Assembly: GCF_013694095.1 (NCBI RefSeq)
Contig: NZ_JACEFB010000006.1
Location: 1 to 64,000 of the forward strand
Origin: Thermogemmata fonticola
GTDB lineage: Bacteria > Planctomycetota > Planctomycetia > Gemmatales > Gemmataceae
Direction of reading: 5' to 3'
DNA length: 64,000 nt
Position 1 is the first letter of the stretch; each line of letters begins with the position of its first letter. The position numbers were made by a program, and so were the translations under genes. Below, piece by piece: positions 45,362 through 48,534 of this stretch. The notes under the pieces were generated by a model. That model was not told where the DNA came from. It ran no database searches and saw only the letters and a list, made by a program, of their open reading frames with translations.

Positions 45362-46051
45362 TCAGTCCGGCCAGCTCCAGGGTTCTGCTCCAGCTCGACT
45401 CGCAAGTGCTGGCAAATAAGCCTCTGCCGTGTAAGGCAGGAACCGTACCGACCCGTCTGCTGCGGTAAAATTAGCTCCCCCGCTGTGCAAGCTCCAAAAG
45501 TGGAACATATGGCAAGGATTGTCGAGTTGATCTGCCCGAAAGTGGTAAGGTCCTGGTGGACAAGGGTAACGCATGCCTAACGCGTTCAACTCCCGGACCC
45601 CTAAGATCATCTCTGCGGACCCCGTTTTGTTCTGTCCCCATCCGCGATACCACCACCCAAAGCGAAAATCAAAAGAAGGCGGACGCTCCCCCACCAAGAT
45701 CGTATTGTTCAAACCATCTCGAATGTCTCCAAAGCATAGTTGTAAGTCGCTAAAAAGAGTTCCATCTGGATTCAAATGATCTTGCCCGATCACACCTAAA
45801 TAACTGGTAAAGGCGTATTGATAATTCCCCATGGTTACCGCCTGTTGAACGCGGGGATCACTGGGACAAACATAGACGCGAATGACTGTGGCCAAAATCG
45901 GCAGATGGGCAGGATGGCCATAAAAGTTGTCAGGATGAGGGTCGGTAGCAAAAGCTTGTTCAATCTGACGCCAGAGCGGCTCTTGTTCGATGTATGGTAG
46001 AATACGCCTTGTCCATCCCAGATAACGATAGCGATTACCGTCTACCCTCAT
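45362..46051 (-). CDS. DUF1559 protein lacking the pilin-like N-terminus
   Basis: The 229-residue protein shows DUF1559 (SBP_bac_10, PulG-like) signatures: YLGWTRRILPYIEQEPLW, VYVCPSDPR, a FGDIRDGLNNTILVGERP element and a C-terminal SLHSGGANFTAADGSVRFL. Normal members begin with a prepilin signal (FTLIELLVVIA-type) and about 60 more residues; these are absent. The frame stays open upstream of the ATG and reads SLAHNLFLPHGYASGHS inside the C39 gene, which resembles the missing part of the domain, until a stop near 46100. It may be a 5'-truncated gene or part of an ancestral fusion. It is last in the four-gene minus-strand cluster. Confidence 0.8.
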   Translation of the reverse strand: MRVDGNRYRYLGWTRRILPYIEQEPLWRQIEQAFATDPHPDNFYGHPAHLPILATVIRVYVCPSDPRVQQAVTMGNYQYAFTSYLGVIGQDHLNPDGTLFSDLQLCFGDIRDGLNNTILVGERPPSFDFRFGWWYRGWGQNKTGSAEMILGVRELNALGMRYPCPPGPYHFRADQLDNPCHMFHFWSLHSGGANFTAADGSVRFLPYTAEAYLPALASRAGAEPWSWPD

Positions 46052-46052
46052 A

Positions 46053-46652
46053 CTATGACCAGAGGCGTATCCATGTGGGAGAAAAAGGTTGTGGGCTAAT
46101 GATCAGGCCAGTACCGTCCCAGATAGCCAGTAAATCTGCTAGTGGTAGGCGTTGTTTTTCGAGTGGGGGGTCCACAATCCAAGCGTGATTGCCATCGACG
46201 CCTAGGAACAGCAGCCAATGCGCATAAGGACTACCGGGGCCAGGACGTTTGACGTGCAAGATCATCGGATGCTGAGAGGCACGCAAGCTCGAAATCGATA
46301 GACCCTCCATGGGGATGGCGTAAGCCCCATGATCTTCAACGAGCAGCTTGAGTTGCTCCATAGTACTACCTTCCCAGGAAGATATGTATTTCTGATCGAG
46401 AAATTTTTCAAAATCTACAGGAATATTATAGCTGTTGAGAGTGATATAAACACAATACAGACCGCAATATGGGCCGGAGGCCTGAGTCAAAAAGTTATCA
46501 TCTGCCCTGGCTATTGTTGAGGGTGTGACTGCCAGTAACGTTACAGTTACGAAGCCAAGGAAGCTAGAAAAAGAGGTCTTACTTGGCAAAATATGTTTAC
46601 TTTGGAAGGCAATTGCACGAGTATGTATACCAGCGGCGCCAGTCATGATCAT
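46053..46652 (-). CDS. C39-type cysteine peptidase, membrane or secreted
   Basis: The 199-residue protein has an N-terminal hydrophobic segment (FSSFLGFVTVTLLAVTPSTIARA) followed by a C39-like domain. The nucleophile region is QASGPYCGLYC (Cys63), a helical part follows, then YAHWLLFLGVDGNHAWIVDPP supplies His145 and Asp161, a complete triad. C39 domains cleave double-glycine leaders of bacteriocins when fused to ABC transporters; stand-alone copies are of unknown role. No ABC transporter is adjacent. ATG 46652 has AAGGA upstream; a GTG at 46664 is an alternative. It lies 13 bases after the AT-rich gene and immediately before the DUF1559 gene. Confidence 0.8.
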   Translation of the reverse strand: MIMTGAAGIHTRAIAFQSKHILPSKTSFSSFLGFVTVTLLAVTPSTIARADDNFLTQASGPYCGLYCVYITLNSYNIPVDFEKFLDQKYISSWEGSTMEQLKLLVEDHGAYAIPMEGLSISSLRASQHPMILHVKRPGPGSPYAHWLLFLGVDGNHAWIVDPPLEKQRLPLADLLAIWDGTGLIISPQPFSPTWIRLWS

Positions 46653-46665
46653 AGGTCCTTGCACA

Positions 46666-47847
46666 TTAGGTATTTCCTCGGCGACGGCGGTAGAGGATAG
46701 CAGCGAGGGTCAGGGTCAGGACAAGAAAGATGAGGATAACGACGAGTCCTCGGCTCCAAAGACTTCCTCCTTCAAAATGAGCACCCGTTAGTTTTTCCAG
46801 AACCCCCTGGGGAACCTTTTTGACGATTTGCCCATCACGCCAGATGTACTCAATACCCTCCAGTGTTTTCATAGAGTCGGTATCTTTGTCGTATCTGAAG
46901 ATAGAGATAGGTGTATCATTTGGTATATCAATCTTGATGGGGATATTATGATTGAGACTGATATTTTCTATCTTATAGTGAGTTTCCTCAAGAACACGCT
47001 GTCCGTTATTATGATATCTTTCTAATTTACTGTGTATACTAGTAAATGTCAATTTTCCATCAACAATCTTGAATTCATCATAGTTAATCAACTCCGTCTC
47101 GTAGTTTAAGGAGGATTCGGGGTAGTCAGGATTGTCTTTCCATGACATCATGAATATGGGAGTATTAGGCTTATACCAGTGATGCTGCTTTGAAATACGA
47201 TTAATACTTTTTATCAAATATCTATTATTATGCAATATTATGTTTATCTTATATTCTCCATAATTGTCGTTATGTAATATGTTTATATCCTTAATTTTCA
47301 TATTGACATTCTGAATTATTTTGTCAATATGTTTATATATTACCTCGCAAAGTGAGTTCGTTTCATACAAGTTAGGTATATATCCATAGATACATGCATA
47401 GTTGCTTAACAATAAATTCTTTCTGAGTTCCCATGAAGAATATGTGGTGTTTTGTTCTTTATCTGTACCAGAAAATTCCGTTCTTTTTATGATCACTTTT
47501 TTATCATCTCCTAGTATCTCCACATGTTCTTTGAGATTAATCTTTTTCCCTTCAAAATATCTTTGACCAATTGTTTCCTCATTTATCTGATATCTTGGAT
47601 ACCTTACGTTTAAGGTACATCGACTGTGAGCCGTGGGAACATGGCGTTCTGGCCATCTTGGTGTATCAAAATACATCTTCGTAACTACAGAGTAGTGCGC
47701 ATTTTTATAAATCTCAAATGGCTCACATATTATATTTAAAAAATTAGATTTTTCACTAGAATAAATATATGTATCATAATATTGGTATATATTAGTTTTT
47801 ATAGATATTAGAATTGTTAATACCGACAAAATTATAAGTTTATACAT
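46666..47847 (-). CDS. AT-rich gene for a secreted, C-terminally membrane-anchored protein of unknown function
   Basis: The 393-residue protein has an N-terminal signal (IILSVLTILISIK), a long polar ectodomain rich in Ile, Asn, Lys and Tyr, and a C-terminal anchor (GLVVILIFLVLTLTLAAIL) ending in RRRRGNT. Base and codon use are strikingly AT-rich compared with every neighbour, except for the 3' end encoding the anchor, which returns to local composition. That suggests transferred or fast-evolving ectodomain DNA joined to a resident anchor. No family is recognised. GAGGAATATAAT provides the RBS. It sits between the Cys-rich gene and the C39 peptidase gene on the same strand. Confidence 0.75.
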   Translation of the reverse strand: MYKLIILSVLTILISIKTNIYQYYDTYIYSSEKSNFLNIICEPFEIYKNAHYSVVTKMYFDTPRWPERHVPTAHSRCTLNVRYPRYQINEETIGQRYFEGKKINLKEHVEILGDDKKVIIKRTEFSGTDKEQNTTYSSWELRKNLLLSNYACIYGYIPNLYETNSLCEVIYKHIDKIIQNVNMKIKDINILHNDNYGEYKINIILHNNRYLIKSINRISKQHHWYKPNTPIFMMSWKDNPDYPESSLNYETELINYDEFKIVDGKLTFTSIHSKLERYHNNGQRVLEETHYKIENISLNHNIPIKIDIPNDTPISIFRYDKDTDSMKTLEGIEYIWRDGQIVKKVPQGVLEKLTGAHFEGGSLWSRGLVVILIFLVLTLTLAAILYRRRRGNT

Positions 47848-47881
47848 ATTATATTCCTCTAACTGCTAGGTGCATTGTTTA

Positions 47882-48250
47882 CTAAGGAATAACTGGATTG
47901 CATTTCTCATAACTTAACCTATCTTGTCTTTTATGTTTGCATGTTCCCTTAGGAGACTGGCATGCAGATCCTCCATTCTCTGCATCGCATAGTAACGTTA
48001 ACTTGATTCCTGGATTTGGTTTTGCACATGCTCTGTAGCTCAATGTACATGCTACTCCTTCTTTTGCTGGTTCACAAGGTGCCGTTACGAGGCCTGAAGT
48101 GTTACAATTGGGCAGAACTGGGACGGGATCTGCCTCGCTGCCGATAAGGCGTTTGAGGCACGGCTCACCGACCACCTTCGGGCCAGCATCGTACAAAGCT
48201 AACAGCACAACCCCACTCGCTAACACGATTTGACCAGCTTTGCTGAACAT
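47882..48250 (-). CDS. cysteine-rich secreted small protein
   Basis: The 122-residue protein has an N-terminal hydrophobic segment (GQIVLASGVVLLALYDAG) followed by about 95 residues with nine cysteines, in contexts such as GEPCLKR, LPNCNTS, TAPCEPA, GVACTLS, YRACAKP, TLLCDAE, GSACQSP, GTCKHK and YEKCNP. The pattern suggests a disulfide-rich exported domain; no family is recognised. ATG 48250 is preferred because GGGGGAG lies five bases upstream; GTG 48256 is an alternative. It is first in the cluster with the AT-rich anchored protein, the C39 peptidase and the DUF1559 protein, with G-rich tandem repeats about 100 bases upstream. Confidence 0.7.
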   Translation of the reverse strand: MFSKAGQIVLASGVVLLALYDAGPKVVGEPCLKRLIGSEADPVPVLPNCNTSGLVTAPCEPAKEGVACTLSYRACAKPNPGIKLTLLCDAENGGSACQSPKGTCKHKRQDRLSYEKCNPVIP

Positions 48251-48350
48251 AGGCACTCCCCCTGGGCTGATGTGTAGTAGTATCTCTTTGGCCCCTTTTC
48301 CGTTTCCCCCTTACTTATTCGCCCCGTGCCCTGCTCCCCACCAATCTACA

Positions 48351-48430
48351 GAATCAGGGGGAATCAGGGGGAATCAGGGGAAATCAGGGGGAATCAGGGG
48401 GAATCAGGGGGAATCAGGGGGAATCAGGGA
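48351..48430. repeat. eight tandem 10-bp G-rich repeats (GAATCAGGGG)n
   Basis: Eight uninterrupted 10-bp units GAATCAGGGG are present. The fourth reads AAATCAGGGG and the last ends GGGA. Because each unit starts with G, the plus strand has runs of five G spaced by AATCA, which could form G-quadruplexes. The array lies in the spacer between dinB (minus, ends 48535) and the Cys-rich gene (minus, starts 48250), in the expected promoter region of the latter cluster. No spacer sequences are present, so it is not CRISPR. Confidence 0.9.
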
Positions 48431-48534
48431 CTTCCGCTACAACATACCAAATCGAATTGGAACCTGTCAATCCCAAAATGAAATTTTTTACGACTCTGTT
48501 GCACGTAGTGGTAGCTCGATAATCTCCCCAACAA

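Follow-up and report, generated by a model that had tools for sequence, protein, structure and literature searches.

C39 peptidases normally belong to ABC transporters and act in the cytosol on GG or GA leaders, which they cut; FapD is the periplasmic exception (PMC5557850). As a class the periplasmic C39 peptidases were uncharacterised in 2017, and the substrate of FapD was then unclear (PMC5557850). Homologues of MauE, suspected of a role in disulfide formation, occur in candidate RiPP clusters (PMC7794033), and Planctomycetes have a greatly expanded set of DUF1559/SBP_bac_10 prepilin proteins, whose genes often have genes with signal peptides as flanking neighbours (PMC8567305). Here we describe a locus of Thermogemmata fonticola with a C39 peptidase and a DUF1559 protein, and consider it probable that the locus is a truncated form of a cassette conserved in Planctomycetia, whose function would be the periplasmic maturation of a small, disulfide-rich protein exported by Sec.

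The window, by which we mean the whole stretch of 64,000 nucleotides analysed, contains four tightly packed minus-strand ORFs (gaps of about 34, 13 and 1 bases), as the first-pass annotation had recorded, and the features that it assigned to them are borne out (Table 1). The translation of the leading ORF is that of an exported protein with nine Cys, the second is AT-rich and encodes an ectodomain (31-34% GC) anchored by a C-terminal TM, and the third carries a Peptidase_C39 domain (Pfam E 1.7e-13) with the catalytic C/H/D at 63/145/161 when counted from the ATG at 46652, or 67/149/165 from the GTG at 46664. The DUF1559 assignment of the fourth is equally sound (E 2.4e-22), and its H-X9-DG end matches TIGR04294 with 26.7 bits against a cut-off of 19. 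Peptidase_C39 (46053-46664) and DUF1559 (45362-46051) were the only Pfam matches among the four products, to which NCBIfam adds the H-X9-DG tail; the ectodomain and Cys-rich proteins matched no curated family in Pfam or NCBIfam. What did not stand is the view of the last two ORFs as intact neighbours and of the second as foreign in composition, to both of which we return below. Upstream of the first gene, a 10-bp unit, GGAATCAGGG, is repeated in tandem seven times (window 48341-48439), with the promoter-like site on one side and the Cys-rich gene on the other.

Table 1. Features of the locus, in window coordinates
Feature	Position	Strand	Basis
Cys-rich exported precursor, predicted C39 substrate	47885..48250	-	ORF; 122 aa; homology to 28 others
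Predicted C39 cleavage site Gly37-Ser38 (RLIGS|EADP)	48137..48142	-	Aligned with GG/GA of family; motif test
Ectodomain protein: signal peptide, LolA/LolB-like domain, C-terminal TM, Arg-rich tail	46669..47847	-	Alignments, AF2 model, GC 34%
LolA/LolB-like domain (model residues 31-328)	46864..47757	-	Structure comparison of model
C-terminal TM helix of ectodomain protein	46675..46761	-	Model secondary structure and sequence
Truncated C39 peptidase ORF: signal peptide and C39 domain only	46053..46664	-	Pfam; profile match 3-181 of 361
Peptidase_C39 domain, Cys, His and Asp conserved	46089..46493	-	Pfam and alignment
Apparent 1.2-1.3 kb deletion junction: C39 C-terminus to mid-DUF1559, out of frame	46050..46105	-	Profiles; spacing in relatives
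DUF1559 remnant without prepilin N-terminus	45365..46102 (homology 45383-46072)	-	Pfam and profiles
H-X9-DG C-terminal motif of DUF1559	45437..45499	-	NCBIfam TIGR04294
Promoter-like TTGACA-N18-TATGTT upstream of first gene	48441..48470	-	Consensus match only

The first-pass annotation had made its reading depend on the genes occurring together elsewhere, and across planctomycete genomes they do. Within the window's family the C39 protein was matched in 12 of 95 genomes, with 11 strong matches (E 2e-12 or lower), the window's among them; the ectodomain gene was found in 10 of the 95, every one among the 11 with the C39 gene, and in the eleventh (G055) the contig ends inside the cassette. Wider surveys, first of the phylum and then, with just the C39 part as query, of the class, brought the total to about 30 genomes from several families, the relatives including some Gemmataceae, Limnoglobus and Planctomycetota MAGs, and annotation of the flanks with profiles built from the sequences found in this analysis gave 31 cassette loci. 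The window protein as sole query in a profile search of the genome contigs returned zero relatives, and a 15-row alignment yielded no motif that could be used; a four-sequence alignment returned five loci, most of them known already. Wherever the contig permits, genes for the ectodomain protein, a C39-rhodanese protein and a MauE protein are adjacent in these 31 loci and in a nearly constant order, the exceptions being L058 and L061, in which the ectodomain gene comes after the Cys-rich genes, and all of the cassette genes absent from loci fall beyond contig ends. A small exported Cys-rich gene adjoins the cassette in 25 of the 28 loci where this is visible, with three such genes in tandem in L058 and two in L061. 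Two kinds of fusion occur: the ectodomain and C39-rhodanese form a single protein in L020 and L118, and MauE is joined to a DUF1559 pseudopilin in L014, L017, L019, L022 and L112. A DUF1559 pseudopilin gene comes next in the cassette within the window's family and is only loosely linked to it outside the Gemmataceae.

The cassette comes and goes, as judged from its absence beside the homologous kinase gene in a genome of the same genus (G073). Partial second copies of the ectodomain gene lie upstream of the Cys-rich gene in L018 (2397-2573) and L019 (4677-5081), which indicates tandem duplication and loss of cassettes. A second, decayed copy is present in G072 (L138 4097-7455), where the ectodomain gene is in two pieces and a transposase-like ORF interrupts the DUF1559 gene, and in L013 (4295-5526) a frameshift splits the DUF1559 gene of an otherwise intact cassette.

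Outside the window, the cassette C39 gene encodes a longer product in which a signal peptide and the C39 peptidase are followed by two TM helices and then a rhodanese domain (31 loci in about 30 planctomycete genomes, with the window as the exception), and Pfam confirmed both domains in relatives. For signal peptides and topology we relied on inspection by eye or on a hydropathy script; by eye, a Sec-type hydrophobic N-terminus precedes the C39 domain. The loop joining the two TMs is positively charged in most members, and together with the signal peptide this would place both the C39 and the rhodanese domains outside the inner membrane. The catalytic Cys, His and Asp are present (PF03412 and alignment), with Asn as the third residue in L017 and L019, and the oxyanion Gln of the ABC-transporter C39 domains is not conserved. 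The rhodanese domain (PF00581; E 6e-16 and 3e-13 in relatives) has a C-x4-C motif (CQSxxC) in nearly all members, and MauE (PF07291; E 2e-19 in relatives) has a CGCFG motif; these parts would point to thiol chemistry, and the window copy has neither the domain nor a MauE. No ABC transporter was found either fused to C39 or recurring among the flank genes of the cassettes. Pairs of rhodanese and MauE that lack C39 are also common in the phylum, at 13 of about 21 loci checked, and the C39 and Cys-rich parts therefore appear to be a specialised form of a broader redox module.

Some loci depart from or add to this pattern. Two divergent copies of C39-like-rhodanese and MauE genes in G446 (L064 6404-8064 and L065 6099-7762) lack both the catalytic Cys motif and an adjoining Cys-rich gene, and their C39-like proteins are possibly non-proteolytic. 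A PMT/PMT_2-type glycosyltransferase gene follows MauE in seven loci (L062, L100, L105, L109, L111, L112 and L113), and L062 also has a fusion of MauE with a GT2 enzyme; glycosylation of the cassette peptide by PMT-type enzymes is possible.

The window Cys-rich protein has a hydrophobic N-terminus and is encoded by the sole gene of its kind in its genome. In alignments of 17 and then 25 such proteins, five to six Cys are invariant, as is a single Gly directly ahead of the Cys block, and a G[AGS] pair (GG, GA or GS) stands immediately ahead of the block in all 29 precursors, the window's included. The textbook double-glycine pattern [VILM]xG[AG] is found in 23 of the 29, against a mean of 4.6 when the same segments were shuffled, and in 10 of the 12 precursors that were found without requiring the motif, against a mean of 2.1; none of 5000 shuffles reached the observed count in either case. 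Cleavage of the window precursor at the predicted site would leave a mature part of 84 residues with eight of the nine Cys. Because the G-G/A/S motif precedes the Cys block and the gene adjoins the cassette, the Cys-rich protein is very probably what C39 cleaves, on the periplasmic side of the membrane. Comparison of the Cys-rich protein with the PDB, both by sequence and by the fold of a model, gave no match, a null that does not make its fold new. A co-divergence test of the Cys-rich protein against the ectodomain gave a weak partial correlation of 0.31, which we left out of the evidence.

The AF2 model of the window ectodomain (pLDDT 71) gave poor, scattered matches with Foldseek alone, and with VIA-align Z scores of 8-11.7 to LolB, LolA, RseB and related chains, the best (11.7) being to LolB. 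The ectodomain thus models as a LolA/LolB-like fold, on the strength of VIA-align re-ranking of a model of that pLDDT. The low GC of its gene, the feature that had earlier been called foreign-looking, is a recurring trait: the ectodomain gene is more AT-rich than its own locus in nine of nine Gemmataceae relatives measured (GC 0.371 versus 0.467 in L017 and 0.383 versus 0.508 in L020), with the window gene, at 0.34, the extreme case among the copies. Since the relatives are likewise AT-shifted, low GC does not by itself mean recent import, and we rejected a recent foreign origin as its cause.

Pseudopilin genes abound in the window's genome, which has 49 PF07596 matches, and three full-length homologues of the cassette DUF1559 lie elsewhere in it. 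The window copy starts at about position 60 of a 291-position profile (or 33 of 268), so that the prepilin N-terminal methylation motif is missing, and its ORF, in a different frame from C39, lacks an export signal as well as any clear ribosome-binding site. The first-pass annotation had taken the DUF1559 partner as a hint of assembly at the surface; as the window copy is a remnant without the pilin N-terminus, pilus-like assembly by it is unlikely. Two other clusters of the same genome, L135 2661-6181 (G000:C7) and L137 4984-7291 (G000:C2), pair a cassette-type DUF1559 with a protein of signal peptide, ectodomain and TM, the former also with a MauE-DUF1573 gene, which suggests that ectodomain and pseudopilin are paired beyond the C39 cassette as well.

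Gene linkage, domain content, the cleavage motif and the deletion are read directly from the sequence, and from these we infer how an intact cassette might work. The hydrophobic N-terminus would export the Cys-rich precursor through Sec, and the membrane-bound, periplasm-facing C39 peptidase would then cut it after GG, GA or GS; these two steps are strongly indicated by the sequences. The later ones are suggested by domain content and linkage: the rhodanese domain (C-x4-C) and MauE (CGCFG) would carry out thiol or disulfide chemistry on the Cys block, the anchored LolA-like protein would bind or escort the product, and in the Gemmataceae the DUF1559 pseudopilin may help to move or display it.

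The window copy departs from this arrangement at the point where C39 and DUF1559 had been taken for two intact neighbouring genes. The C39 product ends at the end of the domain, matching the 361-position C39-rhodanese profile over positions 3-181 and no further, and DUF1559 opens in mid-domain and in another frame. Eight relatives have 1205-1293 bp between these two points, a stretch that holds the two TMs, the rhodanese domain, MauE and the pilin N-terminus; in the window there is no gap. The simplest account would be an internal deletion of about 1.2-1.3 kb. Neither the cassette rhodanese part nor a cassette-type MauE was found elsewhere in the window's genome, which is 97% complete and does contain the distant MauE-DUF1573 gene of L135, and relocation of the missing parts is not supported by this search. 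The reading frames of the C39 domain, the Cys-rich protein and the ectodomain are still open, and hence the deletion could be a recent event, or what is left could still function. Because the membrane anchor, rhodanese, MauE and pilin N-terminus have gone, the window copy would be decaying, or else pared down to a soluble periplasmic C39, its substrate and the LolA-like partner.

It could be argued that the junction is an assembly artefact and that the organism has an intact cassette, given that the genome is a draft of 61 contigs and that the junction is known from one assembly. We consider this very improbable, as the junction lies inside a contig of 251 kb and the missing rhodanese and MauE pieces were not found on other contigs. 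That the locus is a complete four-gene system, as first proposed, is also unlikely, if less so. A reduced working variant, with soluble C39, ectodomain, Cys-rich substrate and a cytosolic DUF1559, would fit with four open ORFs, an intact catalytic triad, GS site and signal peptides, and FapD offers a precedent for a working soluble periplasmic C39. However, the arrangement is seen in no other cassette locus, matches to the C39 profile elsewhere (E below 1e-18) sit in frames of 338-674 aa, the relatives carry the rhodanese and MauE parts lost here, and DUF1559 begins in mid-domain, in a different frame and without an export signal. Of the first-pass interpretation, peptide processing without an ABC transporter is well supported by the co-occurring genes and the C39-type cleavage motif of the Cys-rich protein; the complete four-gene unit and pilus-like assembly by the window copy are not retained.

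The choice of the Cys-rich protein as substrate could be questioned in turn. The peptidase might instead cut the pilin or the LolA-like protein, with G-A/G/S a signal-peptidase or structural constraint, and indeed signal peptidase I, too, prefers a small residue at -1 and the target of FapD was unclear in 2017. We find this doubtful, since position -2 is always Gly and position -4 mostly V, I or L, like double-glycine leaders, the site is well past the hydrophobic segment in many members, and it is kept in the tandem Cys-rich genes. As to what the Cys-rich substrate does, the very divergent cores with fixed Cys, the tandem copies, the patchy presence (including the absence from G073) and the PMT-type glycosyltransferases of seven loci make us lean towards a secreted bioactive peptide. 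A specifically antagonistic or signalling, bacteriocin-like product of the intact cassette, as opposed to a surface or structural protein, is a serious possibility but short of an even one, no immunity gene or dedicated exporter having been recognised. More speculative still, and on balance rather unlikely, is a new class of modified Cys-rich Planctomycetes peptides, some delivered by pseudopilins, in which periplasmic, Sec-dependent double-glycine maturation would combine cleavage with rhodanese-MauE sulfur or disulfide chemistry and, in some lineages, PMT-type glycosylation.

As the first-pass annotation had supposed, our search of the open literature gave no description of this combination of genes, and each part has a different nearest relative. 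The pseudopilin shares the PF07596 domain and H-X9-DG end of other Planctomycetes DUF1559 proteins, but some genomes have the cassette type as a fusion with MauE, and the window copy is without the pilin N-terminus. The ectodomain resembles periplasmic proteins of the LolA/LolB/RseB type in its predicted fold (Z 11.7 to LolB), yet is anchored by a C-terminal TM, is about 390 aa long and has no sequence-profile match to them. The MauE/MauD pair, which matures the disulfide-rich small subunit of methylamine dehydrogenase, likewise places a membrane protein of the MauE family next to a small, Cys-rich exported protein, whereas the cassette has no dehydrogenase and no MauD, with a C-x4-C rhodanese instead. 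A possible job emerges for otherwise orphan planctomycete families (rhodanese-MauE, DUF1559 and the LolA-like anchored protein) and for a group of unannotated Cys-rich exported peptides. With the peptidase-containing ABC transporters of class II bacteriocins and microcins, the cassette has in common the C39 fold and a small precursor encoded alongside, with GG/GA/GS and a hydrophobic -4 residue, but it has no ABC transporter, its peptidase would face the periplasm and the precursor has a Sec-type N-terminus. The closest precedent is FapD of the Pseudomonas fap operon (PMC5557850), also a periplasmic protein with a Sec signal and a C39 domain and no ABC transporter. As described, FapD has no TM, rhodanese or MauE partner, and the fap system makes amyloid through the FapF pore. 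In an all-against-all BLASTP of the cassette flanks, no gene for a FapF-like pore or an amyloid-repeat subunit was seen to recur. In contrast to FapD, whose substrate was unclear in 2017, the cassette C39 has a G-G/A/S precursor adjacent to it, and because about 30 loci pair a periplasmic C39 enzyme with a probable substrate and a recognisable cleavage motif, the question of what such enzymes cut becomes directly testable.
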